DNA of 20,279 nt, from the IMG/VR virus record IMGVR_UViG_3300025120_000742, positions 1 through 20,279 of that record, one strand, 5' to 3'. Positions 4,228 to 16,474 of the stretch are shown here, piece after piece; position 1 is the first letter of the stretch, and each line of letters begins with the position of its first letter. The notes below the pieces were generated by a model that was not told the DNA's origin, searched no databases, and saw nothing but the letters and a program-made list of their open reading frames with translations. This stretch comes from a virus. A program made the translations under genes and the position numbers.

Positions 4228-5408
4228 ACAATCCTATTGATTAATGTATGAAAGGCTTTGGCTGCAGTTTGTGGGACTACTCCATTTCCGAGAAGTCGCA
4301 GTCTGTCCACCCTACTGGAAGACCCATCAGTTGCTCCACCCAGCTTGGGTTCAACTTTAACAACCCTTGGCTCTTCCCATTCGTGTTGCTCTTCATTAGG
4401 TCTTGCTGGGTATTTTCCCCGGCTGCATCCGGTAAAAGATTCCGAGGTTTTTCCTCTTGGTTCTTCTTTGGATAAGCACCCTTCCAATCCCTCGATGTCG
4501 GTGTCGGAAAGTTGTGCATCCCTTGAACTTGTTCCCCTAAGTTGTGCTTGCCCCGGTCTTCCATTTTCGCTCGACTGTCTTGTTCCTTCGGAGTTCCCCA
4601 GTTCTTCGGATTTACTACTTCCTCTCGGAGGTTCTTGCAACCACCCTTCTTCTTTGCTTCCGCTAACTTTTCGGGACTCCTTGCTGGTAGGTTGTCCATT
4701 GTTGATGGAGTTGCCCAATTCTTCTCGTGGTGTATTACTGCATCCCTCAGTTTCGCTCCGTACTTCGTTCCGTTCTCCCTCGTTGCCGAGAATCCCTTCT
4801 CGTTCATCTCTACATTCTTCGCTACTCCCCCCTCTACGCAGCCCGCTACTGAAGCTGTTGGCCAACCCAAGGATGTAGACTCTTTTTCTCTGATGTGGGA
4901 AGCCGACTTCACCCGCTGAGAATATTCCCGCCGTTGCTCTATAACCCAACTCTTCCAATGTTCGGAGGACATATTGGAGAACCGGTTCGCCGTCTTGAGT
5001 GCAGCAACTGAGGATTCCTTCAACGTTTTCGAGGAAAACAATTCTAGGTTGGCACTCTCTGATGCCTTCGGCGATGTATGGGAATAGATGCCTTGGGTCC
5101 TCGGTAGCTTTTCTAGATCCCGCTTGAGAGAACGGCTGGCAAGGGAATCCTCCAGATATGATGTCCACTTGTCCTCGAAACTTTCTGTAAGGGAAGGTCT
5201 TAAGGTTCGTGTATATAGGTGCTTGATGAAGCTTCCCCGTTTCCATCTTGTTCGCCAAGTTCGCAATAGCGAAGGCTTCGATCTCCACATAAGCGATTTC
5301 TCTGACATTTGGCAGAACTTCTCTAAGTCCTCTTCCGATTCCTTCGTACCCAGTGCAGAGACTGAGGTGATTGATTGTATTTGTTTTGTTAGTATCCACA
5401 TTGTTCAT
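4224..5408 (-). CDS. DNA (cytosine-5) methyltransferase
   Basis: The 394 aa protein carries the C5-methyltransferase motifs in order: motif I LSLCTGYEGIGRGL (15-28), motif IV SGGFPCQPFSQAG (85-97, catalytic C90), motif VI FLENVEG (125-131), motif VIII GFPHQRKRVYILG (169-181), and C-terminal VEPKLGG plus RVDRLRLLGNGVVPQ (motif IX/X region, 366-380). Residues 182-340, where the target recognition domain should be, are Gly/Ser/Glu-rich and low complexity with recurring LANS/LGNS/LSDT units (182, 231, 270, 300). It likely methylates phage DNA against host restriction; no partner endonuclease is seen. ATG 5408 overlaps the exonuclease stop (ATGA) and its own stop overlaps the next ATG. A second long frame lies within it (separate entry). 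Confidence 0.93.
   Translation of the reverse strand: MNNVDTNKTNTINHLSLCTGYEGIGRGLREVLPNVREIAYVEIEAFAIANLANKMETGKLHQAPIYTNLKTFPYRKFRGQVDIISGGFPCQPFSQAGSRKATEDPRHLFPYIAEGIRECQPRIVFLENVEGILSCCTQDGEPVLQYVLRTLEELGYRATAGIFSAGEVGFPHQRKRVYILGLANSFSSGLRRGGSSEECRDEREGILGNEGERNEVRSETEGCSNTPREELGNSINNGQPTSKESRKVSGSKEEGWLQEPPRGSSKSEELGNSEGTRQSSENGRPGQAQLRGTSSRDAQLSDTDIEGLEGCLSKEEPRGKTSESFTGCSRGKYPARPNEEQHEWEEPRVVKVEPKLGGATDGSSSRVDRLRLLGNGVVPQTAAKAFHTLINRIV
4277..5401 (-). CDS. Candidate overprinted protein in alternate frame of the methyltransferase gene
   Basis: A 374-codon frame with no stop lies on the same strand as the methyltransferase, shifted +1, with its first ATG only 7 nt after the methyltransferase ATG. 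Its second half is modular. WPTA at 180, NWATPSTMDN at 228, NWGTPKEQDS at 267 and NFPTPTSRDW at 297 alternate with AKLRDAV, KNLREEVV, HNLGEQV and RNLLPDAAG. It ends LNPSWVEQLMGLPVGWTDC (350-368) and SEME. From memory, phage and bacterial proteins with WPTP repeats, an EYSQR segment (here at 159) and LNPxWVExLMGxPxGWT do exist in databases. However, each WxTP is also the forced +1 echo of L(A/G)N(S/T) in the main frame, so expression is unproven. The true start within the frame is unknown. Confidence 0.4.
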   Translation of the reverse strand: MWILTKQIQSITSVSALGTKESEEDLEKFCQMSEKSLMWRSKPSLLRTWRTRWKRGSFIKHLYTRTLRPSLTESFEDKWTSYLEDSLASRSLKRDLEKLPRTQGIYSHTSPKASESANLELFSSKTLKESSVAALKTANRFSNMSSEHWKSWVIEQRREYSQRVKSASHIREKESTSLGWPTASVAGCVEGGVAKNVEMNEKGFSATRENGTKYGAKLRDAVIHHEKNWATPSTMDNLPARSPEKLAEAKKKGGCKNLREEVVNPKNWGTPKEQDSRAKMEDRGKHNLGEQVQGMHNFPTPTSRDWKGAYPKKNQEEKPRNLLPDAAGENTQQDLMKSNTNGKSQGLLKLNPSWVEQLMGLPVGWTDCDFSEME

Positions 5409-6157
5409 TTCTTTTTGGGTTTAAGCATTCTCTCTTGCCAATATACTTTGGCCGAAAGCTTTGCACATTCTAGGTAGTGATTAAATTCGTTATCGCTCCA
5501 AGTCTTGTGATAGTGTTCAGCGGTGTTGGTGTCAATACAAACTGATATAATTTTTGGATTGTAATTTAATTTCAATTTTTTAGCTAGCATTACACTCTCG
5601 ATTGCTAACTGCTTGCAGTCCTTGCCGTAGAACTTACCCTTGCCGTCGCAGCTTCGACACTTGTAATCCGCGAGAAAAACCTTCTCGTCCTTATCTAGAC
5701 CGATAAAGTCCACACTTCCAGCAATCTTAAATCTTGAGTCCGATATAATGTATTCGCAGTCAATGACTTGCACACCGCTATCGTTGACCCAATCAATGAA
5801 TGGTTTCGCCCAATCATCAAAGGCCGTAGCGTCCCCCTCTCCCATCATTAGCCAATCCTCAATCCTTTTGTGAACGGCCGTCCCAAACTCTGAGCTTGGT
5901 ATCATATTCCCCGTAAATGGGTGCGGTCTAAATCCGTAGACCATATCCTTTAGTTTAGTATAGTGCAAATCGGTATGCTCCCTAGCTAACTCGACTAGCT
6001 TCCTAGGCTGGTAAACGGAATCTAGGAAATCATCTTTAACAATTCCTAGCACTGTCGTAACGGACGGATAGGCTCGCCCCATTTTGCGTGCTTGTGGAGC
6101 GGTTGTAATGTCCTCCAAGAACTGTGGCTTCTTAGCTGATGTATAGAAGTGGCTCAT
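5405..6157 (-). CDS. PD-(D/E)XK exonuclease, RecB/Cas4-like
   Basis: ATG 6157 is chosen because AGGAGG lies 7 bases upstream; the longer frame needs a TTG at 6196 and overlaps the upstream small gene. The 250 aa protein has the RecB-nuclease order: GTAVHKRIEDW (92-102, H96), AGSVDFIG (146-153, D150), FLADYKCRS (161-169, D164 and K166) and CKQLAIES (181-188, Q183). That set marks an ATP-independent exonuclease that resects DNA ends. Paired with Erf and the SSB-like protein it would feed annealing-based recombination. A CRSCDGKG stretch (167-174) adds two cysteines next to the active site, with C181 close by; I see no complete Fe-S cysteine set. The end overlaps the methyltransferase start (ATGA). 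Confidence 0.85.
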   Translation of the reverse strand: MSHFYTSAKKPQFLEDITTAPQARKMGRAYPSVTTVLGIVKDDFLDSVYQPRKLVELAREHTDLHYTKLKDMVYGFRPHPFTGNMIPSSEFGTAVHKRIEDWLMMGEGDATAFDDWAKPFIDWVNDSGVQVIDCEYIISDSRFKIAGSVDFIGLDKDEKVFLADYKCRSCDGKGKFYGKDCKQLAIESVMLAKKLKLNYNPKIISVCIDTNTAEHYHKTWSDNEFNHYLECAKLSAKVYWQERMLKPKKK

Positions 6158-6267
6158 TTCTTTTCCTCCTTCTTTTTCTTTCTTGTCTTGCTCCAATCAA
6201 TAGAATCATAGTTTGCGTCATACTTCTTTTGATCGTAGCCTTTTTTCGGTTCCATTCCTTTTCCCAT
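6154..6267 (-). CDS. Small basic protein, 37 aa
   Basis: A 37-codon frame from ATG 6267 to TGA at 6154-6156 fills the only apparent gap between the 63 aa gene (stop 6273) and the exonuclease. The product MGKGMEPKKGYDQKKYDANY continues to DSIDWSKTRKKKKEEKK, strongly basic at the end. Its stop overlaps the exonuclease ATG (ATGA), and the exonuclease Shine-Dalgarno AGGAGG is part of its Lys/Glu-rich tail. Similar KYDxNYDxI-type small proteins occur in marine phages as far as I recall. No function is known; a nucleic-acid-binding peptide is possible given the charge. Confidence 0.6.
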   Translation of the reverse strand: MGKGMEPKKGYDQKKYDANYDSIDWSKTRKKKKEEKK

Positions 6268-6272
6268 ATTTA

Positions 6273-6464
6273 TTAAGGTATCCTATCCCATTTTCTTAGT
6301 TCGCCGCAGTCCTTATCTTTTATCAGTCCCAGCAATCTAAAGGTATCAACGGCCTCTTTACCTTCTCTCATTGTCTTGCGGTTCTTCTCAGCTTTCTCAA
6401 ATACCTCTTCAAAGGCATCTAGTGATCGCGTGCTTTTATGCTCATCGGCTTCTTGTTTATACAT
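6273..6464 (-). CDS. Hypothetical protein, 63 aa
   Basis: A highly charged, mostly helical protein (DAFEEVFEKAEKNRKTMREG) ending in LGLIKDKDCGELRKWDRIP. There is no membrane segment. It sits 5 bp from both neighbours (6470 upstream gene stop, 6267 downstream start), consistent with one transcript. The family is not recognised. Confidence 0.6.
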   Translation of the reverse strand: MYKQEADEHKSTRSLDAFEEVFEKAEKNRKTMREGKEAVDTFRLLGLIKDKDCGELRKWDRIP

Positions 6465-6469
6465 ACTTA

Positions 6470-6841
6470 TTATAGTTCCTCCATATCCATTATGGGTTCA
6501 ATAAGATCCCTTATGATTGTCTTAGGCTCTTCGTAATGCATTTGGCATAGGATCAAATCCCCCTTGTATGCTTCAACAATTACGACTTCGTTGTATTCGT
6601 TCTTGATGTAGCTAAAACCTACTTGATTCCTAGCTATGTATTCTAATATCTTGTCAGCATTTCGCGGCGGTAATGGGTTGGGAATCCTTTCGCAGTAGTA
6701 GTCACCATTGACCAAGTCCCCAACGTGTTTATTATTCAAAGATCCGAGACTGTCCCGAACCAGCACTATTTCATCTTGACCCATTGTATCGGCTAATCCG
6801 TCTGGGTAAATGTAGAATTGTATTTTATTTTTTTCTTTCAT
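6470..6841 (-). CDS. Hypothetical protein, 123 aa
   Basis: A soluble mixed alpha/beta protein beginning MKEKNKIQFYIYPDGLADTMGQDEI, split here only for length, and ending in an acidic helix PIMDMEEL. No catalytic motif is apparent. The start is preceded by ACATAAATATG without a Shine-Dalgarno, like the other early genes. A TTGACA on the minus strand (6876-6871) lies about 30 bases upstream, but the matching -10 is poor. It is the first gene after the gene-free gap 6842-7103 and probably the 5' end of the recombination operon. Confidence 0.65.
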   Translation of the reverse strand: MKEKNKIQFYIYPDGLADTMGQDEIVLVRDSLGSLNNKHVGDLVNGDYYCERIPNPLPPRNADKILEYIARNQVGFSYIKNEYNEVVIVEAYKGDLILCQMHYEEPKTIIRDLIEPIMDMEEL

Positions 6842-6900
6842 ATTTATGTTCTGTATTAGTTACTTACGAATGTCAAGGGTATTACCGGTTAATTTTTTTA

Positions 6901-6929
6901 TTGACACGTAATTTAAGATTAAGTATAAT
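6901..6929 (+). promoter_or_regulatory. Consensus sigma70 promoter (TTGACA-N17-TATAAT)
   Basis: TTGACA at 6901-6906 and TATAAT at 6924-6929 are separated by exactly 17 bases, matching all 12 consensus positions. Transcription would start near 6936 and run rightward, against the flanking leftward genes. No plus-strand gene follows, so the product is either an RNA from the gap or an antisense transcript over the 7104-7910 genes. Confidence 0.7.
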
Positions 6930-6935
6930 TGAGAG

Positions 6936-7085
6936 TATAAAGAGAGAACGAAGTGAAAGAGTGCAACGAAATAGGCAGAATTACTTCTGTAACAATGCCG
7001 ATCCGCTCGTATGTAAAACACTTCAAACAGATGATACGTTGCTGCCTCGATATTCTTCATTCTTCTTCTTGGGTTTAAGGATAAT
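6936..7085 (+). ncRNA. Candidate small RNA (speculative)
   Basis: The 150 bases after the consensus promoter lack a convincing ribosome site or reading frame and contain several complementary segments (GCAACG/CGTTGC; GGCAG/CTGCC; GAAGTG near 6950 with CACTTC near 7020). The 3' end is not defined; no clear intrinsic terminator follows, only an AATCAC/GTGATT pair near 7102-7126 without a T run. No known RNA family is recognised. Confidence 0.3.
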
Positions 7086-7103
7086 TGTATTTAAATATTT
7101 AAA

Positions 7104-7298
7104 TCACTCCTTTATGTATTTGTGATTAGTTATGTAAACACGTCCCTCTGTCACAATCTCATTATGAAAGTCTTTATCTATTTGTCTTTCTTGGATTGCG
7201 TCAAAGTGTTCGTGTGCTTCGTCCATCGCTTGGATGTATTCCTCTGTAGTTAGGTTCGCCTCTATGGCTTTTTTGATTATGTCTTTCATATGTGTCAT
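7104..7298 (-). CDS. Hypothetical protein, 64 aa
   Basis: A small helical protein (MTHMKDIIKKAIEANLTTEEY...) with a central acidic and His-containing helix and a short beta-like end VYITNHKYIKE. The internal ATG at 7289 is an alternative start. It begins 3 bases after the stop of the acidic 74 aa gene, so the two are surely co-transcribed. No family is recognised. Confidence 0.6.
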   Translation of the reverse strand: MTHMKDIIKKAIEANLTTEEYIQAMDEAHEHFDAIQERQIDKDFHNEIVTEGRVYITNHKYIKE

Positions 7299-7301
7299 AG
7301 T

Positions 7302-7526
7302 TTATCTGTCTCTATCTGGGTCTTCTTCAATTTCGCCCTCTTTGATTTCTTCTATTATTCTAGAGCCATCCCAGTAATCTGCGTCTATTAAATTATTATC
7401 GTGGTCTACTTGCATTTCTGCTTCTTCAATGGCTTCTTCTATAGAGTCCGCTTCAACTTCTAGCTTGTATGTTACAAGCTCTTTCCATTCTACTGTGTAT
7501 GTATTTGGTGCTTTTATTCCTATCAT
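7302..7526 (-). CDS. Acidic hypothetical protein, 74 aa
   Basis: A very acidic protein with a beta-helix-beta look: YTVEWKELVTYKLEVEADSI, then EEAIEEAEMQVDHD, and a tail rich in Glu and Asp (KEGEIEEDPDRDR). Its overall charge suggests a DNA mimic or a binder of a basic partner, but that is only composition. It follows the 48 aa membrane protein by 4 bases and precedes the 64 aa gene by 3. Start ATG 7526 has no Shine-Dalgarno. Confidence 0.6.
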   Translation of the reverse strand: MIGIKAPNTYTVEWKELVTYKLEVEADSIEEAIEEAEMQVDHDNNLIDADYWDGSRIIEEIKEGEIEEDPDRDR

Positions 7527-7530
7527 AATT

Positions 7531-7677
7531 TTATTTTATTAGTATTGTTATTATTGTTACTGCGATTATTAAAGCGAATGATCCGACAAGAAGCAAGGCT
7601 TCTTTATATGTCTTTTCGCCGCCAGCTACTAAGCTGCTCAATTCCAATCTTCTTTTATTTTCTCTTTCTTTATTCAT
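7531..7677 (-). CDS. Small single-pass membrane protein, 48 aa
   Basis: The 147-base frame runs from ATG 7677 to TAA at 7531-7533. The N-terminal half is charged (MNKERENKRRLELSSL) and the C-terminal part is one hydrophobic segment (ALLLVGSFALIIAVTIITIL, residues 27-46) ending in IK, so it is a tail-anchored-type single-span protein with its basic end probably cytoplasmic. Its start overlaps the stop of the 78 aa gene as ATGA and its stop is 4 bases before the next start, fitting the operon perfectly. A holin-like or early membrane-acting role is possible; there is no direct evidence. Confidence 0.7.
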   Translation of the reverse strand: MNKERENKRRLELSSLVAGGEKTYKEALLLVGSFALIIAVTIITILIK

Positions 7678-7910
7678 TGTATTACTTCCCCGGTAAAGGT
7701 TAAAAATCCGCCTTCTATTAATGCTTTAGCGGTTCGTTCATAATGACCTTGTAACTGCCAGACTATACCGCTTTTGAGTAGCTCTGAAAAAAGCAATAAG
7801 CTTTGTATTTCATCAAGCTTTCCCTCTTCATAATCAAATAACACTTTCATATTATTTAATGACATTGCATTTTTAAATTCCTCTTTAGGATTATATTTTA
7901 ATTTATTCAT
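7674..7910 (-). CDS. Conserved phage protein, DUF7417-like, 78 aa
   Basis: The segment LLLFSELLKSGIVWQLQGHY followed by ERTAKALIEGGFL matches a short conserved phage protein I know as DUF7417-type: an aliphatic helix, then SGxxWxLQGHYxRTAxxLIExG. Its function is unknown. The start ATG 7910 follows a repeated AATAAATAAATATG leader without a Shine-Dalgarno, and the end overlaps the small membrane protein gene (ATGA). A hairpin cassette lies just upstream. Confidence 0.7.
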   Translation of the reverse strand: MNKLKYNPKEEFKNAMSLNNMKVLFDYEEGKLDEIQSLLLFSELLKSGIVWQLQGHYERTAKALIEGGFLTFTGEVIQ

Positions 7911-7993
7911 ATTTATTTATTTATTGTTAGTTAAAAATTAAATGCGGTCCACCAGCACCGGGCAACCGGTGAACCTTATTAACCTTTAATAAA
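7911..7993 (-). repeat. Intergenic cassette copy 1: hairpin plus T-rich tract plus AATAAATA leader
   Basis: Read on the minus strand this gap runs AGGTTAATAAGGTTCACCGG, then a hairpin, a TTTTTAAC tract and the CAATAAATAAATAAATATG leader of the 78 aa gene. Two alternative stems overlap: CACCGG/CCGGTG (7956-7961 with 7966-7971) and an outer 8-bp stem (7946-7953 with 7968-7975, one G-U). It closely resembles the gap at 8630-8703. The stem with the following T tract could end transcription of the 211 aa gene or shape processing. Confidence 0.65.
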
Positions 7994-8629
7994 CTATCTA
8001 TTCCAACTTTCTTTGATGGCTACCCAGATTATTGCTTGCAATTGATATCCTTTCAATCTGTACCTTTTCGCAAGCTTAGCTGTGATTGCTTCAATGCGTC
8101 GATATTGTAACGCTGTGCAACTTTCTACCGCGTCAACTATCCCATCGTTAGGAATACAAACGCACGCTCTTAGATGCCATTTATCAACTGTTATATGACT
8201 CGCGGACAATAGACCGACATTCATTGCAAACGCGTGAGTTTTCGGAGATTGAGAGCTTATCTTTTTTCCCTCTCTTAATATTTTCCAAGCTTTCAACTTG
8301 TTTGCATCATAAGTACAAACTTTAACATTTTCCATTATTTCCTTCTCTGTAAATTTACCACAAGCGAAACAGCCAATTAAAGCTTCGGCGTCAATTTTAT
8401 TTCTTTTCCATTTGTTATTAGGAGATAAAGCACTTACTACACTGGCAACGATGTAAGAATCTAGATTATATTTTTTGGCGGTATCTTTACAGAAGGACTG
8501 TGCGTCTTTATACCAAGATTTACCGGCTTTACGATTGGACCGCGTGGCGGATTTATACCACGATTCAAGATTATCATAAATTTCTTGATCGGTGATTTTT
8601 GTAACTGCTCTTTTGAATTGGTTTTTCAT
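7994..8629 (-). CDS. Conserved phage helical protein, DUF7178-like, possible HhH-glycosylase relative
   Basis: The 211 aa protein has a pattern I recall from phage proteins of the DUF7178 type: GKSWYKDAQSFCKDTAKKY (36-54), SALSPNNKWKRN (66-77), TYDANKLKAWKIL (106-118), SPKTHAFAMNV (128-138), TVDKWHLRAC (147-156) and YQLQAIIWVAIKE near the end. The K-T-x-x-F-x-x-N ... V-D-x-x-x-x-R spacing is reminiscent of the Lys and Asp region of HhH-GPD DNA glycosylases, but the canonical hairpin is missing, so that link is only suggestive. ATG 8629 follows an AATAAATAAATATG leader. The gene is flanked on both sides by the hairpin cassette, giving it the look of an independent unit. Confidence 0.65.
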   Translation of the reverse strand: MKNQFKRAVTKITDQEIYDNLESWYKSATRSNRKAGKSWYKDAQSFCKDTAKKYNLDSYIVASVVSALSPNNKWKRNKIDAEALIGCFACGKFTEKEIMENVKVCTYDANKLKAWKILREGKKISSQSPKTHAFAMNVGLLSASHITVDKWHLRACVCIPNDGIVDAVESCTALQYRRIEAITAKLAKRYRLKGYQLQAIIWVAIKESWNR

Positions 8630-8703
8630 ATTTATTTATTTTAGGTTAGTGTTAAAAAGCTGAAGTCGACTCACCGGTAAACCGGTGAATCTTATTAGCC
8701 TTT
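8630..8703 (-). repeat. Intergenic cassette copy 2: 10-11 bp hairpin plus T tract plus AATAAATA leader
   Basis: On the minus strand the stop of the 94 aa gene is followed by AGGCTAATAAGATTCACCGG, completing a long stem (8668-8678 with 8681-8691, one G-U pair, minimal loop TTTA), then GACTTCAGCTTTTTAAC and the AAAATAAATAAATATG leader. Shared blocks with copy 1 are AATAAGrTTCACCGGTT, CCGGTG, TTTTTAAC and the leader. The T run begins about 8 bases after the stem, so it is a weak or atypical intrinsic terminator. Confidence 0.65.
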
Positions 8704-8988
8704 TTACTCAAAATCGTAACCCATATTTTTAATAATATGAACTATGTTAGATGAAGTTTTGTCAAAAACAAAATTTTCTTTTATTTTGAATTTATTCCAT
8801 TCTTCATTTTCCCAATCATCATTTAAAGAATTAGGTAAAAATATTTGTAACTCTAACTCTTCATTAAATATTGATTCGGTTAAATCATTTCTACTTGTTG
8901 AATTAAGGAAGCCTTTGAATCCTTTTGTTTCAAGAATCTCGATAAGAGAATCGGCTTTGAATTTTTGGTTTTTCTTTTCTATGTTCAT
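8704..8988 (-). CDS. Hypothetical protein, 94 aa, first gene of the leftward operon
   Basis: A Lys/Asn/Glu-rich soluble protein (MNIEKKNQKFKADSLIEIL...) with no recognised motif. The DNA is more AT-rich than its neighbours, and the acidic patch NDDWENEEWNKFK is notable. Start ATG 8988 follows CTAAATAAATAAATATATG and lies about 30-40 bases downstream of the extended -10 promoter at 9027-9055, so it should be the first leftward early gene. The hairpin cassette follows the TAA stop directly. Host-takeover or anti-defence proteins often occupy this position, but nothing in the sequence shows such an activity. Confidence 0.6.
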   Translation of the reverse strand: MNIEKKNQKFKADSLIEILETKGFKGFLNSTSRNDLTESIFNEELELQIFLPNSLNDDWENEEWNKFKIKENFVFDKTSSNIVHIIKNMGYDFE

Positions 8989-9026
8989 ATATTTATTTAT
9001 TTAGGTTATTAATTTAATTCGAGATC

Positions 9027-9055
9027 ATTATATCAAAATACGGCCATTTTATAAA
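9027..9055 (-). promoter_or_regulatory. Leftward early promoter with extended -10
   Basis: On the minus strand TGATATAAT supplies a perfect -10 (9032-9027) with the TGn extension, and TTTATA (9055-9050) is a partial -35 at a 17-base spacing. The predicted start is near 9020, some 30 bases before ATG 8988. Confidence 0.55.
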
Positions 9056-9119
9056 TCCATCATTTTGAATACTTTATCCAAAATATTGAAACCAGATTAA
9101 TTCTCAAATAATCCCTTAA

Positions 9120-9267
9120 ATTAGCTTTGCTAATATATCTAAAACGATAAGAAAAACTAATTAATTCACAGTATAAGCAAAACTTATTTGACAAATAGTA
9201 TTAGAAACTCTTATAGTAGATGTATTATTAGCAATACTTATATTAAACCGGCATTAGAAAAACTAAT
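9120..9267. repeat. Six-copy dyad repeat array, ATWAG-N5-CTWAT, period about 26.6 bp
   Basis: Fifteen-base dyads begin at 9120, 9147, 9173, 9200, 9227 and 9253, each ATTAG or ATAAG, five bases (often A-rich), then CTAAT or CTTAT. All twelve half-sites obey ATWAG or its complement. Start-to-start distances are 27, 26, 27, 27 and 26, about 2.5 helical turns, placing alternate copies on opposite faces of the helix. The spacers are not conserved. Such iterons typically bind one dimeric protein cooperatively; origin, packaging or operator functions are all possible. Confidence 0.85.
9188..9217 (+). promoter_or_regulatory. Rightward promoter for the packaging/structural operon
   Basis: TTGACA (9188-9193) is perfect, and TATAGT (9212-9217) matches five of six -10 bases at an 18-base spacing. 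The -35 lies in the spacer after dyad copy 3 and the -10 overlaps the end of copy 4, so a protein bound to the array would block RNA polymerase. A start near 9224 would leave about 160 bases of leader before the small terminase gene. Confidence 0.6.
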
Positions 9268-9269
9268 AG

Positions 9270-9305
9270 TAGTGAACATATGTACACTAGTGAACATTTG
9301 TACAG
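9270..9305. repeat. Tandem 18-bp repeat of a near-palindrome
   Basis: TAGTGAACATATGTACAC (9270-9287) is followed directly by TAGTGAACATTTGTACAG (9288-9305), differing at two positions. The core GTGAACATATGTACAC is palindromic except for one mismatched pair, which suggests a dimeric repressor site. The GAAC-N4-GTAC core recalls LexA-type boxes (GAAC-N4-GTTC), an inference only. Confidence 0.7.
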
Positions 9306-9332
9306 TGGGGCGGGGCGGTCGCGAGTCGGCGG
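9305..9332. other. GC-rich block before the small terminase gene, candidate packaging site
   Basis: Twenty-eight bases made almost entirely of G and C, starting GTGGGGCGGGGCGG and containing the palindrome TCGCGA (9319-9324), interrupt an AT-rich region. GC-rich cos sites are often close to the small terminase gene, which begins 54 bases later. There is no direct evidence of cleavage. Confidence 0.3.
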
Positions 9333-9386
9333 TTACTGCTAGTCACGATTACATAAATCAGCCCTTAAAAAAATAACACACTCAAG

Positions 9387-9953
9387 ATGACTGAAGAGGA
9401 GAAACTAAAGACCGAGATACAAGCAGCGATCCGCGAGGTGGCTGACGACAAGGAGTTGCAGAGTATCAAGAGTCTAAGTCGGCACAACCCTATGAAGGTG
9501 GCTCAGATACTGTATATGTACAGCATAGGCAAGAGCCAGACGCATATAGTAAAGAAGCACAAGATACAAAGGAGTACAGTAATACAAGTGCTTGTGGACT
9601 ACGCCGACCACTTGGGCAAGCTCCGGGACTTAGCGGGTAAGATCAGTGCCAAGAACTATATGAACCTCAGTTCATTGGAGGAGGACTTGGTTGAGAGGGT
9701 ACGGGACCGAATGGAGAACGACCCCGAGATGGAGATCACATTCCGGGACTTAAAGGAGTTGAGCATAGCTAAGGCTAACGCATTCCGCGAAACTATGACT
9801 ACTAGGGGAGAGGCCAGTCAGATTACCGAGGAGCGTAAGGTAGTGACCCAAGAGGACTACGAGGATACTTTAAAAGCAGCCAGAGAGAGACTGGATAATA
9901 TGAAACAAGCGGAGGCAATAGATATCAATGGAAACGACGATGAAGTTAGTTAA
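9387..9953 (+). CDS. terS: Terminase small subunit (probable)
   Basis: A 188 aa protein lying upstream of the large terminase, with a helix-turn-helix-like segment YSIGKSQTHIVKKHKIQRST (45-64) followed by VIQVLVDYADHLGKL. The remainder is a charged helical region (SLEEDLVERVRDRMENDPEM) and a flexible acidic tail (INGNDDEVS). This fits small terminases, which bind the packaging site through an N-terminal HTH and oligomerise through helices. There is little Shine-Dalgarno before ATG 9387 (ACTCAAGATG). The dyad array and GC-rich block just upstream would be natural binding sites. It could alternatively be another HTH regulator. Confidence 0.7.
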   Translation: MTEEEKLKTEIQAAIREVADDKELQSIKSLSRHNPMKVAQILYMYSIGKSQTHIVKKHKIQRSTVIQVLVDYADHLGKLRDLAGKISAKNYMNLSSLEEDLVERVRDRMENDPEMEITFRDLKELSIAKANAFRETMTTRGEASQITEERKVVTQEDYEDTLKAARERLDNMKQAEAIDINGNDDEVS

Positions 9954-10179
9954 GGTCACTTGGAAGGACATAGTTGCGGACTTACATACTGAGGAGGACA
10001 TAGTTCCTTGCGATAGTTGGTCAGTGGGTTGGATACAAGAGGACACCGATGAGTACTTGAGGTTATATACTGGATTCTATGAGGATGGTATAGAGCTTGC
10101 GGACAAGATAGTTATCCCCAAGGGATGTATAGTAAAGATAGAGAACTTAAAGGTAACAAGCGATTTCTTTGATGATTGA
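9928..10179 (+). CDS. Hypothetical protein, 83 aa
   Basis: A small acidic beta-rich protein: KLVKVTWKDIVADL, WSVGWIQEDTDEYLRLYTGF and IVIPKGCIVKIENLKV suggest a strand-dominated fold. The start overlaps the small terminase end by 26 bases. GGAGG (9911-9915) lies 12 bases before ATG 9928, and ATG 9940 is an alternative. Proteins of this type recur between the terminase genes of marine phages as I recall, but no function is known. Confidence 0.6.
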   Translation: METTMKLVKVTWKDIVADLHTEEDIVPCDSWSVGWIQEDTDEYLRLYTGFYEDGIELADKIVIPKGCIVKIENLKVTSDFFDD

Positions 10180-10390
10180 TCCCAACTATGATGATTTGTT
10201 TGACCGCGTTCGAGGAAACTTGGGCGAGCACTTCAGTAACTATATGTTTATAGTTATGGATGACAGTGGTAACTTATTCTATGACTACACGAATCATAGG
10301 GTAGGAAAGATGCTTGTGGACGAGACAAAGAGTGAGATGGAGGCGGATGTTTTGGACATATGGTGGGAGGATCCGGAAGAGAAGGAGTAA
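10172..10390 (+). CDS. Hypothetical acidic protein, 72 aa
   Basis: ATG 10172 is preferred over an adjacent TTG three bases earlier; it overlaps the previous gene by 8 bases. The protein is acidic (MIDPNYDDLFDRVRGN...) with a strand pair YMFIVMDDSGNLFYDY and ends IWWEDPEEKE. No family is recognised. Its last codons carry the AAGGAG ribosome site for the large terminase. Confidence 0.6.
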   Translation: MIDPNYDDLFDRVRGNLGEHFSNYMFIVMDDSGNLFYDYTNHRVGKMLVDETKSEMEADVLDIWWEDPEEKE

Positions 10391-10396
10391 TGTTCT

Positions 10397-12055
10397 ATGG
10401 AGCTTAAGTTCACCCCACATCCTTTTCTACAGCCCCCTACTGACGAGGAGATAGTTCTCCTTGCGGAGAAGGACCCCAAGTTGTTGGAGGCATTGTATCT
10501 ATCCCACGAGGGACGCTTACAAGCATCTGAGGAGGACCCAGTACGTTACGGTTTTGACCTACCGGGATGGGAGCGTATGCAGAGTAGCCTAGGTGAGAAA
10601 AACGAGTGCTTGGTTCTAGGTGGTAACAGAAGTGGTAAGACCACTGGGTGTGCAAAAATGGTTATGCAAGCAGTTATGGACAACGAGGACGGGCACGTTG
10701 TTTGTTTCAGTCAAAATGCGGACACTAGTATTAAGGTACAGCAAGCTGCTGTGTGGGAGATGATGCCCAAAGAGTTCCGGAAGAAGACAAAAAGTATAGA
10801 GGGGTACATAAACTTCAGTATGCAGAACGGTTTTACTGGTCAGTCCTTTATCTTCCCGGACACTAGAACACGGGTGGACTTCAAGACCTATACGCAGTAC
10901 AGCAACAATCAGACAATCCTTGAGGGTTTTGAGTTCGGCTTCAAGAAGCCCAAGACGATTAACATCGGTGCTTGGTTGGATGAGTACTTAGGGGACGCTG
11001 CTTTGGTAAACACCTTACGATTCCGTTTAGCTACTAGAGATGCTAAGATGGTAATTGGGTTTACACCCATTGATGGTTACACTCCCTTCATTGCTGATTA
11101 CTTGAAGGGGGCTGAGACCATAAAGACAAGAGAGGCTGAGTTATTAAAGAACAAACAATTACCGATTGAGCAATACAGCCCAGATCGGGACGCTGGTGTA
11201 ATCTACTTACATTCCGACGAGAACCCCTTCGGTGGTTACGAACGTATCGCTAAGGACCTCAGAGGCCGTCCAGAGGACGAGATAATGGTGCGTGCTTATG
11301 GTATGCCCGTGAAATCGATGACGAGTCTCTTACCTTTATTTAACACAGAAGTAAATGTACTATCCAAAATACCCAACAAACACGGAAGAAGATTCCCAGA
11401 CATATCTGATAAATCCCAATTTAGCTGTTATCAAGTGGTCGACCCAGCCGGAGCGAGAAACTATGTTAGCCTATGGGCTGGAGTTAATCGAGATAATGAA
11501 GTTTATATCCGAAGAGAGTGGCCAGACCGTGATACATACGGCGAGTGGGCAATTTTTGGAGACCCAAAGTGGAAGTTCGGACCAGCAGCCAAAAAGGTGG
11601 GTTTCAATGTAGAGGGCTACGTGGAGCTATTCAAGGAGATTGAGGAAGAGCTGGACATACAAGTAATAGAAAGAATAGGGGACTCCAGATACTTTGCTAG
11701 AGAGAATGAGAACAACGATGACTTGTTTACATCCTTCTATGATTTTGGGATGAACTTCATCCCCAGTGACGGACGTATGGAGGAGGTTGGTATATCCGCT
11801 TTGGACGAGTGGTTCAGTTACAACCCTAACATAGAGGTGGATGAAGCCAACAAGCCCTTGTGTTACATACACAGCGACTGCGGGAACTTAATTGATTCCT
11901 TGATCAATTACAATTCTAAGGGGAAGGCTGATGAGCCCCTAAAGGATTTCTTTGACGCGATCCGATACTTACGTATGGCAAACTCCGGAGAAGGACCGGA
12001 CCATATAGATTCAAGAAATTTAAACACAACAATGCAAACAAAAGGAGGGTACTAA
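10397..12055 (+). CDS. terL: Terminase large subunit
   Basis: The 552 aa protein has both terminase activities. The ATPase has Walker A GGNRSGKT (75-82), Walker B IGAWLDEY with D195 and E196, and a GFTP coupling segment (221-224). The RNase H-like nuclease has VVDPAG (D349), IGDSRYFA (D429) and KDFFDAIRYL (D520), the expected three acidic metal ligands. It cuts concatemeric DNA and drives it through the portal. AAGGAG lies 10 bases upstream of ATG 10397. The position between small terminase and portal is canonical. Confidence 0.95.
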   Translation: MELKFTPHPFLQPPTDEEIVLLAEKDPKLLEALYLSHEGRLQASEEDPVRYGFDLPGWERMQSSLGEKNECLVLGGNRSGKTTGCAKMVMQAVMDNEDGHVVCFSQNADTSIKVQQAAVWEMMPKEFRKKTKSIEGYINFSMQNGFTGQSFIFPDTRTRVDFKTYTQYSNNQTILEGFEFGFKKPKTINIGAWLDEYLGDAALVNTLRFRLATRDAKMVIGFTPIDGYTPFIADYLKGAETIKTREAELLKNKQLPIEQYSPDRDAGVIYLHSDENPFGGYERIAKDLRGRPEDEIMVRAYGMPVKSMTSLLPLFNTEVNVLSKIPNKHGRRFPDISDKSQFSCYQVVDPAGARNYVSLWAGVNRDNEVYIRREWPDRDTYGEWAIFGDPKWKFGPAAKKVGFNVEGYVELFKEIEEELDIQVIERIGDSRYFARENENNDDLFTSFYDFGMNFIPSDGRMEEVGISALDEWFSYNPNIEVDEANKPLCYIHSDCGNLIDSLINYNSKGKADEPLKDFFDAIRYLRMANSGEGPDHIDSRNLNTTMQTKGGY

Positions 12056-12056
12056 T

Positions 12057-12434
12057 ATGCCAAAGAAACGATTAACAGAAATAGTAGAGGATTACGGCAT
12101 TTCCATAGAGGAAGGCCTTGAGCTAGTTTTTAAAGAGCTAGAAGAAGATATGGTTACCGGAAGGGGTAAAGCAACGTGGATTAGTGAAGCCGGTCAGATA
12201 GTTCTAGAAGAACTTATATCAATGCCGGTTCTTTACAGAGGACCCGTTCTCAGTCAAGCACCGAACCGTATGTACGTTATGGTTTATTTAAAGGACATAA
12301 CCAAGAAGGTTCCGGTAAAAGTACCGCGACGTATGTTGGGGAAGATAACACCCGGAAAAGTAATCTACGTAGAGACGGACAACAGCGGTCCAGAAACTAA
12401 GTACCACTGGGTCAAAACACCTCAACGTGGTTGA
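12057..12434 (+). CDS. Conserved phage protein of unknown function, 125 aa
   Basis: Begins MPKKRLTEIVEDYGISIEEG, a short helical segment resembling the IF2 N-terminal type of small helical domain, followed by a helix LVFKELEEDMV and a beta-rich half with GRGKATWIS, MPVLYRG, KKVPVKVP and GKVIYVETDN. A perfect AAAGGAGGG ribosome site overlaps the end of the large terminase. The protein is typical of the terminase-portal interval in marine podovirus-like phages as I remember. Head-assembly or DNA-binding functions are guesses. Confidence 0.65.
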   Translation: MPKKRLTEIVEDYGISIEEGLELVFKELEEDMVTGRGKATWISEAGQIVLEELISMPVLYRGPVLSQAPNRMYVMVYLKDITKKVPVKVPRRMLGKITPGKVIYVETDNSGPETKYHWVKTPQRG

Positions 12435-12461
12435 TAGGTATGATATTATAAATACTAAACT

Positions 12462-14546
12462 ATGCAAAGTGATAATAATTCAGAAGCACTTACGTACGTA
12501 AGTAAGGAACCAAGCATTAATACCCTACGTTACGCGTATGACCAAACGGTCACAGAGCTAGAATCATACTTTGATTTATGTAGGTCAAGCTACGACGATA
12601 GGCGTAACTGGTGGGCTGGTAAAAGTAGGGACCACAGAAAGCACGGAGCGGACGCATTCCCTTGGGAGGGTGCCGCCGATATGGAGGCTCATACAATCGA
12701 TGAGCGTATTACTCGCTTAGTATCTTTGTTTATGTCCAGCCTTAACCGTGCTAACGTTCGAGCGTTTCCGGTGGAGTCCAGTGATATGGCTAGAAGCAAG
12801 ATGGTATCCAGCTTCTTGAAGTGGATGGTATCCAGTGGTTACATTCCTAGGCTCAAGAGAGAGATGGAACTCGGTGCGAATTATTTATTAGAACGCGGTA
12901 TCTTAATTACATACGTAGGTTGGCACCGTGAGGACAGAAGGTTCTTACAACGCTTGGACATAAATCAAATTGCACAAGCAGCCCCAGAGGTTGTTGAATT
13001 AATCCAAGGTGGCGAAAATGACGAAGAGCTTACAGCTTTACTTGAAGTAACATTCCCGGGTGTAACAAAGAAGAGAGCTAAGAAAGCCCTCAAGGAATTA
13101 CGCAAGAACGGAGAAGCAGAGCTACCAATCGTTCGTAGACAGATTGATGCCCCCGAGGTCAAGACCCTTGCTCCCGATGGTGACTTCTTCTTCCCTCCAT
13201 ATGTTACGGACCCACAGCGTGCACCGTACTGTTTTTGGAGAACTTACTACACAGCTCAAGAGCTTGAAAACAAAGTAATGACCGACGGATGGGACGAGGA
13301 CTTTGTTGATTACATTATCGAGCACTACAGAGGTGTAAGTGTGGACTCAATCGAACGAGAGCAAGAAGGACGTAGGAGTACATCATTGACTGACAACGCT
13401 TATGAAGCTAATGAGTTAATTGAAATAGTTTACGGATACCAACGCTTGATTGACCAAGAGGACGGATCCGAAGGAATTTACTGCACAGTCTTCCACAAAC
13501 AGTTTGATGGAAACGAGCAAGCTCCGGGATATGCTAAGTTTGAATTATTAAACGGCTACGAGGACTACCCAGTGGTTGTAAGTAAACTTTCTGAAGATAG
13601 CAAGAGGTTGTACGACACTCAAACTATCCCAGACATTCTTCGCGGGATTCAGAATCAAGTCAAGGTTGAGCGGGATTCACGTATAGATAGAAACAGCCTA
13701 GCTACACTACCTCCGATTCTTCACCCAGTTGGTCAAGCACCAACAGATTGGGGACCGGGAAGAATGATACCTTACCGCAGAAAGGGAGACTTGGACTTCG
13801 CTCCAACACCACCATCACCAGTTGGTTCCATAGAGATCGAGAAGACTATGGAAGCCCAAGCGGACAGACTCTGTGGATTGGATGAAACAAGTCAAATCTC
13901 ACAAGTGCGTAAACAATTCTTGGTCGACAAGTTCTTACAGCACAACGCTGAGGTTTTACAGATGTGTTATAAATGTTTTCAGAGGTTTGGACCGGACTCA
14001 GTTTTCTTTAGAGTAACCGGATCGCCGGACCCCGTAAATTTTGATAAGGGTGACCCCGACGAAAATTACGACATAATCATTTCATATGATGTCCTCAATT
14101 CGGATCCAGAAACTCAAGAACAAAAGCTACAGCAGCTCATTGCCCTTACTCAGTTGGATAGGAGTGGTCGTATTGATATCAACTCTCTGCTTGATGCAGC
14201 TGCTAATAGTATCGATCCGGTCCTTGCTGATCGTATTCTACAGCCTACAGAGGCTGCTCAAGAACAAGTTGTACGTAAAGTAACTGATGACCTCGCTAAG
14301 ATATTTGCGGGTATCGAGATGCCAGCGAGTCCTAACGGTGCTCAAGTGGCTATGCAAGTTATTCAGCAGTACACTTCTCAGCCAGATGTTGCTGCTAGGG
14401 TGCAGTCCGACGAAGCCTTCAGAGCTCGTCTCGAGAAGTACGCTGGTCAGTATACCTTCCAAATGCAACAAGCACAGAATGCTCAGATTGGTAGAGTCGG
14501 TACACAACCAGCCCAAATGGGAGACATCCAAACACAAGGAATATAG
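12462..14546 (+). CDS. Portal protein
   Basis: A 694 aa protein with portal-like composition and position. The N-terminal region has a WEGAADMEAHTIDERITRLV segment (67-86, a typical portal clip or wing start), then a helical stem, a long beta-rich wing, and a C-terminal region of Gln/Ala-rich helices (FQMQQAQNAQIG). The length suits portals of SU10-type and marine podovirus-like phages. It forms the dodecameric ring at the unique capsid vertex, binding terminase and the adaptor proteins. It lies between terminase and scaffold/capsid genes, and its stop is directly followed by the lysozyme gene. No frameshift is seen. Confidence 0.85.
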   Translation: MQSDNNSEALTYVSKEPSINTLRYAYDQTVTELESYFDLCRSSYDDRRNWWAGKSRDHRKHGADAFPWEGAADMEAHTIDERITRLVSLFMSSLNRANVRAFPVESSDMARSKMVSSFLKWMVSSGYIPRLKREMELGANYLLERGILITYVGWHREDRRFLQRLDINQIAQAAPEVVELIQGGENDEELTALLEVTFPGVTKKRAKKALKELRKNGEAELPIVRRQIDAPEVKTLAPDGDFFFPPYVTDPQRAPYCFWRTYYTAQELENKVMTDGWDEDFVDYIIEHYRGVSVDSIEREQEGRRSTSLTDNAYEANELIEIVYGYQRLIDQEDGSEGIYCTVFHKQFDGNEQAPGYAKFELLNGYEDYPVVVSKLSEDSKRLYDTQTIPDILRGIQNQVKVERDSRIDRNSLATLPPILHPVGQAPTDWGPGRMIPYRRKGDLDFAPTPPSPVGSIEIEKTMEAQADRLCGLDETSQISQVRKQFLVDKFLQHNAEVLQMCYKCFQRFGPDSVFFRVTGSPDPVNFDKGDPDENYDIIISYDVLNSDPETQEQKLQQLIALTQLDRSGRIDINSLLDAAANSIDPVLADRILQPTEAAQEQVVRKVTDDLAKIFAGIEMPASPNGAQVAMQVIQQYTSQPDVAARVQSDEAFRARLEKYAGQYTFQMQQAQNAQIGRVGTQPAQMGDIQTQGI

Positions 14547-14547
14547 T

Positions 14548-15081
14548 ATGGCAAATATGACTAGAAGTCAGTTTGCTGATATGAGAGCATCTCAGCTTTC
14601 AGTACCACAGCTCGTAGCTAAGACCGTTAGTTTAAATGAAGGTATTCGTAACAATGTCTACAACGACACAAAGGGAAATCCAAGTATTGCGGTTGGATTC
14701 AACTTAAATGACAAAACAAACCAACCGGCACTGGATGCCTTGGGCTTAAACAGAGATGAGTTAAAAGCTGGTACTAGGTCATTGACTGCCCGAGAAATAA
14801 ATGAGCTCTACAAGTACTCATCTACACGAGCAGTTAAGGACGCTATAAAATTTGATCCAAACTTGCGGTCCAGACCAGCTAATGTTCAAGTAGCTATTAT
14901 TGATATGTCCTTCAACCTAGGTTTAAATAAACTAAAAGAGTTTAAGAAGATGAAAGCAGCCCTTGATGTTAATGACTACAATACAGCTGCGGACGAAATG
15001 CAAGATTCATTATGGTTCGACCAAGTAAAAGACCGCGGACCTCGTATGGTTAATATTATGCGTACCGGTTTTACTGATTAA
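14548..15081 (+). CDS. T4-type lysozyme (GH24), likely endolysin or virion lysozyme
   Basis: ATG 14548 follows AAGGA by about 8 bases and is 1 base after the portal stop; an open frame extends upstream to 14287 but that part is a shadow of the portal. The 177 aa protein has the catalytic block NEGIRNNVYNDTKGNPSIAVGF (30-51): E31 and D40 match the T4 lysozyme Glu and Asp, and S46 replaces the usual Thr. A C-terminal IIDMSFNLGLNKLKEFKKM and WFDQVKDRGPRMVNIMRTG match T4 lysozyme's second domain. It cleaves peptidoglycan. There is no signal peptide. Its place inside the head module, next to the portal, suggests a particle-associated enzyme or an unusual location for the endolysin. Confidence 0.88.
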   Translation: MANMTRSQFADMRASQLSVPQLVAKTVSLNEGIRNNVYNDTKGNPSIAVGFNLNDKTNQPALDALGLNRDELKAGTRSLTAREINELYKYSSTRAVKDAIKFDPNLRSRPANVQVAIIDMSFNLGLNKLKEFKKMKAALDVNDYNTAADEMQDSLWFDQVKDRGPRMVNIMRTGFTD

Positions 15082-15084
15082 TTT

Positions 15085-15303
15085 ATGACACTAGAAGAAG
15101 ACCTACAATCGTTAGGACAGCACGAGCACTTTGCTCGGTTCCTAAATACCATAAGCGACCTCAGAGAGGAATCAATAGAGGACTTGCATAAAGCAAGCAA
15201 CGAAGAGATACAACAAATCTCGGGTCGAATACTGACATACGACCAAATACTTCAAATGTGTGACTGGCGAAACCTACAAGTACGCTACGCTGATAGACTT
15301 TAA
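15085..15303 (+). CDS. Conserved small phage protein, 72 aa
   Basis: A short helical acidic protein (MTLEEDLQSLGQHEHFARFL) continuing LREESIEDLHKASNEEIQQISGRIL and ending YDQILQMCDWRNLQV. Similar proteins sit between portal and scaffold in related phages, as far as I recall, but no function is assigned. It begins 3 bases after the lysozyme stop, with no Shine-Dalgarno (ATTAATTTATG), so it is probably translationally coupled. Confidence 0.65.
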   Translation: MTLEEDLQSLGQHEHFARFLNTISDLREESIEDLHKASNEEIQQISGRILTYDQILQMCDWRNLQVRYADRL

Positions 15304-15373
15304 TTATATGCTATTGATGTATAGTATATAATATAACCATCGACTACGCTCGTCGTAAACAAGCGGAAACATT
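15304..15373 (+). promoter_or_regulatory. Possible weak promoter before the scaffold gene
   Basis: A perfect -10 TATAAT sits at 15327-15332 within a very AT-rich stretch. At a 17-base spacing the -35 is only TTATAT (15304-15309). Downstream CGAC/GTCG forms a short stem. It could boost scaffold and capsid transcription, but the -35 is poor. Confidence 0.25.
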
Positions 15374-16474
15374 ATGTCAAACGAAATCACAGTGGGAGAC
15401 GCTGAACCCACAACAGAAACAGCAGCGGAACAGTCAAATATGTCAGTGACGGATTTTATTAACCGTCGCTTAGGCCAAGCAGAGGAGAAAGCTCCACAAG
15501 CGGAAGCCAATGTTGAAGCAACAGACGAAGTAGTGGAAGAAGCCGAGGTTGAGAGCAATGCGGAAGAAACCAACGAAAAAGTTGTTGCTGAACAATCAGA
15601 GGGAACAGAGGAGCAATCCGAAGTATCCGACGATGTTCTTTCACAGTTAGATCTAGATGAGATGTCCGAAGATGACCTCAAGGAACTATCCGAAAAGCTA
15701 GGCAGTAGAGCAGTAGCTCGATTTGGGGAACTTACAGCAAAGCGTAAAGCGGCTGAAGAGAAACTCAAAGCGATGGAAGCTCAACTCCAAACAAAGAATC
15801 CATTAGAGACTCAACAAGTAGCTAACAACCCATATGAATCAGTAGGTTCATTAGAGGGTTTGCAAGAAAAAGCTCAAGAAGTAACAGAAGTAATAGAGTG
15901 GGCTGAGGAAATGTTGTTCAACGCAGACGGGTACGGACCAGAGGATGTCGTAACAGAAGTAGAAGGAAAAGAGCTTACCAAAGCTGATGTGCGTAAAAGC
16001 CTATTGAACGCACGCAAGGCTAGGGATAAATTCTTACCGGCTCAACTGAAAACACTCCAAACAGTAGCACAATCAAAACAGCTTAAAGAAGCCTTTGATA
16101 CACAAGCTACACAAGAGTTGGATTGGTTACAAGGAGAGGATAACGACACTCGTAAGAACTATGAAGCTATGGTCGGTGATTCCCGATTCCAAAAACTATT
16201 AGATAAAGCAGAACCAGAAATAGGAGCACAGCTCAACTATATTATGGCTCACGCTGCTAATAGTATATACGGACGGAAAACCATCAAAAATAGCCCAACC
16301 TCTACGAAGTTAAGTCCACCTAAAACAGCCGTAAGTGCTGCATCAACATCAGAGAAAACTGTGGGAAAGTCCGCTAAAGCACTTAAAAGCTTTAACCAAC
16401 AATTTAGACAGTCTGGCAACAAGAGTGATTTCATAGCTCTCAGAACTCTACAATTAAAAAACAAACAATCCTAA
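15374..16474 (+). CDS. Capsid scaffolding protein
   Basis: A 366 aa protein directly upstream of the major capsid gene. The first 100 residues are strongly acidic and low complexity (EATDEVVEEAEVESNAEE), followed by a coiled-coil-rich middle (RFGELTAKRKAAEEKLKAME) and a basic C-terminus (KALKSFNQQFRQSGNKSDF). This acidic-helical-basic layout is typical of internal scaffolds, whose basic tail binds the capsid protein. It directs procapsid assembly and is removed before packaging. No protease motif is visible. Confidence 0.8.
   Translation: MSNEITVGDAEPTTETAAEQSNMSVTDFINRRLGQAEEKAPQAEANVEATDEVVEEAEVESNAEETNEKVVAEQSEGTEEQSEVSDDVLSQLDLDEMSEDDLKELSEKLGSRAVARFGELTAKRKAAEEKLKAMEAQLQTKNPLETQQVANNPYESVGSLEGLQEKAQEVTEVIEWAEEMLFNADGYGPEDVVTEVEGKELTKADVRKSLLNARKARDKFLPAQLKTLQTVAQSKQLKEAFDTQATQELDWLQGEDNDTRKNYEAMVGDSRFQKLLDKAEPEIGAQLNYIMAHAANSIYGRKTIKNSPTSTKLSPPKTAVSAASTSEKTVGKSAKALKSFNQQFRQSGNKSDFIALRTLQLKNKQS

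Follow-up and report, generated by a model that had tools for sequence, protein, structure and literature searches.

The divergent control region of the virus record IMGVR_UViG_3300025120_000742 raises the question of what purpose is served by a dense cluster of short inverted repeats lying between its early and late genes. The window, i.e. the whole stretch of 20,279 bases that was analysed, is a virus contig and a partial record. Left of the cluster the minus strand carries early genes that include a DnaB-type helicase, an Erf-type annealing protein, a cytosine methylase and an exonuclease; to the right lie the gene of a 188-residue probable small terminase (terS, 9387-9953, + strand), the terminase large subunit (phrog_2, 10397-12055) and a major capsid protein (Pfam SU10_MCP). 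The initial annotation offered three readings of the cluster, an origin iteron set, a cosB-like packaging array, or an operator silencing late genes, and of these the evidence favours the operator. The same annotation called the adjoining gene an HTH-containing small terminase; the small terminase assignment stands on its position before the large subunit and on synteny in relatives, whereas the HTH is only a weak Pfam match (HTH_23, E=0.03).

The cluster consists of six copies of the 15-bp dyad ATWAG-N5-CTWAT, all of them exact and placed as first annotated: ATTAGCTTTGCTAAT at 9120-9134, ATAAGAAAAACTAAT at 9147-9161, ATAAGCAAAACTTAT at 9173-9187, ATTAGAAACTCTTAT at 9200-9214, ATTAGCAATACTTAT at 9227-9241 and ATTAGAAAAACTAAT at 9253-9267, none having a strand. 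Two of the six read exactly ATTAG-N5-CTAAT; the five central bases of the dyads vary and, as had been noted, the spacers between them are mutually unrelated in sequence. By a first-order Markov null for the 396-bp intergenic region the expected number of exact copies averages 0.0098, with a maximum of two in 200,000 trials, and no seventh exact copy is found in the 20,279-base record, all six falling within 148 bp. The start-to-start intervals of 27, 26, 27, 27 and 26 bp average 26.6 bp or ~2.5 turns, so that the strict phase originally described holds within the window. It does not hold as a family rule, since neighbouring dyads in relatives have start-to-start distances that group at 26-29, 31-32 and 37-39 bp, a few being only 19-25 bp; this variable spacing does not support helical phasing as a general property, and the proposed alternation of copies between two faces of the helix is likewise not kept.

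The array does overlap a rightward promoter, as was also claimed. This sigma-70-like sequence (9188-9217, + strand) has TTGACA at 9188-9193 and TATAGT at 9212-9217 separated by an 18-bp spacer, matches 11 of 12 consensus bases, and is the best rightward match of its kind in the region, with a putative transcription start near 9224. Relative to such a start the centres of dyads 1 to 6 would lie at about -97, -70, -44, -17, +10 and +36, dyad 3 abutting the -35 box and dyad 4 lying between the two boxes and overlapping the -10. Because a promoter scan finds about as many promoter-like sites in the region as in shuffled sequence, the assignment draws on the quality of the match and on its recurrence beside dyads in relatives. 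The dyad that abuts TTGACA in the window overlaps it by one base in L024, L025, L031 and L034, and a dyad between -35 and -10 is shared by the window, L011, L013, L014 and L199, relatives that are mutually non-independent; in the L070-L073 group an additional dyad sits on the terS promoter, near the gene. Inspection by eye of GC-rich relatives shows no TTGACA beside the array and places the terS promoter hundreds of bases off; it is thus not apparent in all family members that the array controls a promoter. On the - strand, 9027-9055 contains a candidate early promoter directed leftward, TTTATA-17-TATAAT, in which a TG precedes the -10; it matches 10 of 12 consensus bases, weaker than the rightward one, and does not overlap the array.

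Other promoter-like features of the region were noted in passing. Upstream of terS in L070-L073, and in L188, L204 and L217, the -10 of the terS promoter appears by eye to end up within a few bases of the start codon, on its upstream side, which suggests that the terS message of these phages may be leaderless. At 6901-6929 (+) the window has a perfect sigma-70 consensus, TTGACA-17-TATAAT, in an intergenic gap and directed against the early operon; 20 of 48 sequences, the window among them, have such a perfect promoter, with a 16-18 bp spacer, to the left of terS. It may possibly give rise to a small RNA; no convincing common fold was found among eight stretches downstream of such promoters. 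Between two early genes, at 8671-8688, the stem-loop TCACCGGTAAACCGGTGA is terminator-like.

Between the array and terS two further elements follow. Positions 9271-9306 are occupied by two 18-bp dyads in tandem, AGTGAACATATGTACACT and AGTGAACATTTGTACAGT, which have no strand and belong to a second type; similar dyads occur in relatives, and these AGTGAACATWTGTACA-type sequences resemble GAAC-N4-GTTC boxes. A conserved core element with a G-box and an A-tract then extends over 9307-9386 (+) and consists of the G-box GGGGCGGGGCGGTC, a variable stretch, TACATAAATC, and CCCTTAAAAAAATA followed by CTCA; aligned across relatives it reads GGGGnGGnGGTC, a variable part, a stretch like TATATATACATAAA, and finally CCCTTAAAAAAATA and CTCA. 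Of 147 relatives, 137 gave a match to the core element upstream of terS; its distance from the gene differs widely among them, and for this reason it is not simply a terS leader. The leader RNA, core element included, is no more stable than shuffled sequence, and Rfam has no match in the window. The last dyad touches the G-rich box that begins the core element in 11 of the 34 phages that have at least three exact copies.

Recurrence of the dyads was followed in relatives gathered by small-terminase search (80 viral loci) and by large-terminase search (80 likewise). At least one exact dyad is present, always upstream of terS, in 36 of the 79 small-terminase-anchored loci tabulated, and at least three are present in 34 of 82 distinct control regions, a set enriched for dyads in that some of its members were fetched by pattern scan. 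A search of 2.9 million viral contigs for three spaced dyads returned 50 stretches, ~40 of them with terminase genes of the phage family to which the window belongs; in these the array again occupies the slot to the left of the conserved G-box/A-tract element. In GC-rich relatives the AT-rich arms of the dyads are kept amid GC-rich spacers, and this persistence in the same slot against a GC-rich background argues that the sites are under selection. Three further loci, L178, L185 and L222, carry ATWAG arrays yet share no detected gene with the family; in L222, a 172-kb viral contig, many ATWAG dyads at 9840-10550 are mixed with GAACAAACGTTC boxes, and no gene of the window's family was detected in the stretch examined. 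The nearest annotated phage, C75C1, has a terminase 75% identical and none of the dyads; a text search by name found no paper describing it. A scan of 84,980 bacterial and archaeal genomes for the array pattern gave 13 matches, most of those examined being exact or near-exact tandem repeats. A separate observation in two relatives concerns a small late protein with a VPEP-type tail (G002 2345-2647 and G015 29794-30081, coordinates with terS turned to +), one of the two proteins reaching the curated cut-off for a PEP-CTERM sorting domain and the other falling below it.

The most informative comparison is with L005, the closest relative, whose terS product is 99% and terS DNA 96.9% identical to that of the window. 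L005 aligns at 95% to window positions 8628-15950, the alignment spanning the array region, and at 84 to 96% over the rest of the left arm, and it contains no ATWAG dyad. Over 5042-15950 it has counterparts of all window genes compared, some of them clearly divergent; its extras within 5042-9110 are three small open reading frames without a recognised domain. The two phages form a nearly clean pair, the main difference over ~11 kb being the dyad cis element. The initial annotation had named as a refutation of its proposal related phages in which the control region is the same but the dyads are missing, and L005 is such a relative. It speaks against an indispensable packaging or origin role, but not against a swappable operator. 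The idea that the small terminase binds the dyads as a cosB or pac array during packaging has in its favour that the array adjoins terS and that the nearby core element is conserved in position before this gene. It is contradicted by L005, which retains the terminase product and flanking DNA ~95% identical but not the dyads, and by other relatives of at least 90% terS identity that also differ in having them; a packaging function of the array is accordingly very improbable. As for where the genome itself ends, contig ends of relatives reveal no common terminus and were rejected as genome ends, those of G004 overlapping by an exact 77 bp and those of G018 and G011 looking overlapping by eye.

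The loss in L005 is not an isolated case. The presence of dyads differs in 99 of 411 pairs of relatives with at least 85% terS identity, pairs that are not independent of one another. What occupies the slot instead also varies. In L005 an inverted repeat CATATC-N10-GATATG, recognised by eye, has five overlapping matches against 0.57 expected when three mismatches are allowed, one of them perfect; that it is the replacement motif of L005 is the weaker claim. In more distant relatives the slot contains GTATCC-N7-GGATAC seven times (0.006 expected), TAGGGT-N4-ACCCTA nine times (0.08 expected) or ATGGGT-N1-ACCCAT five times (0.02 expected), each with up to two mismatches, and since the swapped-in motifs were chosen by de novo scan of the same sequences these expected values understate chance. 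A type of dyad called type C (TGAGACTnAGTCTCA) matches the Fur box at up to 16 of 19 bases, where 0.13 matches of at least 14 bases per region are expected by chance; that type C dyads may be Fur boxes is only a lead. Judged from these comparisons, the slot is conserved while what fills it is interchangeable.

The same turnover bears on the possibility that the dyads are the initiator iterons of a replication origin, with the G-rich and AT-rich core as melting element. In lambda-type origins dyad-bearing iterons stand beside an AT-rich stretch, and the likeness to the window is that its dyad repeats likewise adjoin the conserved G-box, AT-rich and A-tract core; the genome also encodes a DnaB-type helicase, and the cumulative GC skew has its minimum at 9169, within the array. 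The differences are that no initiator gene is recognised among the 32 window proteins and that the repeats are absent from L005. The skew check that had been suggested for an origin lends it no positive support: at third codon positions the coding strands of the two arms both have a slightly negative skew (-0.05 and -0.09), so that the minimum reflects gene orientation and is not a replication signal. More iteron-like than the dyads are direct repeats of TAAGTCGTTGATA, ~22 bp apart, elsewhere in the region of GC-rich relatives; by eye these lie left of the array in the control regions of L180, L181, L204 and L217. An origin at the array is therefore considered improbable. Six dyad-carrying relatives share a small protein family (L194 10146-10466, G033, G035, G036, L197 and L218), of which the L194 member matches the DnaA DNA-binding domain (Bac_DnaA_C); a protein resembling DnaA domain IV is present in some relatives.

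The preferred interpretation, which is held tentatively and with somewhat less than even confidence, is that the six dyads form a multi-site operator of the rightward promoter and that a host protein probably acts as its regulator, the simplest candidate being a member of the GcvA class of LysR-type regulators. A study of LysR-type regulators predicted for the GcvA operator a pair of inverted repeats of 15 bp each, ATTAG-n5-CTAAT, which lie at -65 and -43 relative to gcvB and include the CTAAT motif found important by mutagenesis (PMC5002191). In E. coli K-12 the gcvA-gcvB region has two imperfect copies, with 2 and 1 mismatches to this pattern, 22 bp apart. At the level of sequence the window dyads have the same 15-bp repeat as the predicted GcvA operator of gcvA-gcvB and gcvTHP of Gammaproteobacteria. 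The centres of dyads 2 and 3 would fall about 70 and 44 bases before the putative start, 26 bp from each other, as compared with GcvA centres at -65 and -43, which are 22 bp from each other; dyad 3 comes close to the -43 position. Against a GcvA assignment is that the documented GcvA arrangement is a pair of sites on a bacterial gene, separated by 22 bp, and not a set of six at 26-27 bp on a phage promoter.

On the operator reading each 15-bp dyad would bind one dimer of the same regulator, and the promoter at 9188-9217 would run into terS and the head genes. Dimers at dyads 2 and 3, whose placement resembles that of the paired sites of LysR-type regulators, might stimulate or bend the promoter, whereas those at dyads 4, 5 and 6, which cover the -10 and the first transcribed bases, would be expected to block it. 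Judging by position, occupancy of the array would then determine the timing of rightward transcription, or whether it takes place at all. A different use of the same binding, in which the array acts as a sponge, soaking up a host factor as copies of the phage DNA accumulate, and has no local control function, could draw on the many sites per genome and on the location of the array away from a recognised promoter in some relatives. It is disfavoured by the siting of dyads, which coincide with promoter elements in the window and in several relatives and with the terS promoter in L070-L073, and seems quite unlikely.

The operator reading also raises the question of where the binding protein comes from. 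No LysR-type or repressor-like domain occurs among the 32 window proteins, and none of the repressor or LysR type among the 51 proteins of G009, a dyad-carrying contig of 36.8 kb, in the first 25 of its 27 Pfam families. Nor was any gene family found to be present in all dyad carriers and absent elsewhere, either among the left-arm proteins of 48 relatives or among all open reading frames of 33 genomes and loci. With the small terminase made an unlikely binder by L005, no regulator domain and no covarying gene family, we infer, tentatively, a host protein that binds the dyads in a GcvA-like manner and regulates the rightward promoter. The main rival is an operator for a phage-encoded, fast-evolving repressor or activator, whose specificity is swapped between relatives like that of an immunity region and whose gene lies outside the compared stretch or is too divergent to be recognised. 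Quite different dyad arrays in the same slot and their rapid swapping between near-identical phages speak for such a regulator, and the window, being a 20-kb fragment, could leave the gene beyond its ends. The GTATCC, TAGGGT and ATGGGT dyads, which match no familiar host box, would also be better suited by phage-specific repressors; to our knowledge no known host regulator matches any of these three types. Yet no regulator domain was recognised in the window or in G009, L005 lacks the dyads while having counterparts of all genes compared over 5042-15950, and the protein families most associated with the dyad (an acidic 85-residue protein and DUF7417) are not DNA-binding-like and are missing from some carriers. 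A search with terminase alignments found no terminase relative in the 84,980 bacterial and archaeal genomes and hence no sign of a prophage, so that a temperate life style is without support. A phage-encoded regulator is therefore regarded as possible but rather doubtful.

There are precedents both for arrays of operators and for the control of phage promoters by host regulators. The P1 promoter of tectivirus GIL01 is controlled by host LexA through inverted-repeat boxes, with binding demonstrated experimentally (PMC4551915). GIL01 thus resembles the proposal made here in placing a phage promoter under a host regulator, and differs in being temperate and in using two LexA sites assisted by the phage protein gp7. 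The cluster A mycobacteriophages have many copies of repressor sites (operators and stoperators) whose specificity varies between related phages (PMC6550527, PMC9283540). The window's family shares with them the multi-copy sites and a specificity that differs between relatives; the cluster A sites are asymmetric, genome-wide and served by a phage-encoded repressor, whereas those of the window are palindromic, confined to one slot, and accompanied by no repressor that could be found. Unlike stoperators the dyads are not spread over the genome, the six copies lying within 148 bp of the record. As far as open papers show, what is new is a conserved slot in which dyads, here of a GcvA-type box, are exchanged between near-identical and apparently lytic phages; a word search of such papers found no description of a phage slot with exchanged GcvA, LexA or Fur boxes.

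A broader proposal, speculative and on balance unlikely, is that the slot is a late-promoter cassette exchanging host regulator boxes, GcvA-like here and LexA-, Fur- or Pho-like in relatives, by which an apparently lytic family would tie late expression to the metabolic or stress state of its host. If phages of this family do indeed lack a regulator of their own and tune their late genes by interchangeable host operator arrays, the timing of virus production would depend on the regulators of the host, and operator turnover between near-identical phages would constitute a readable record of adaptation.
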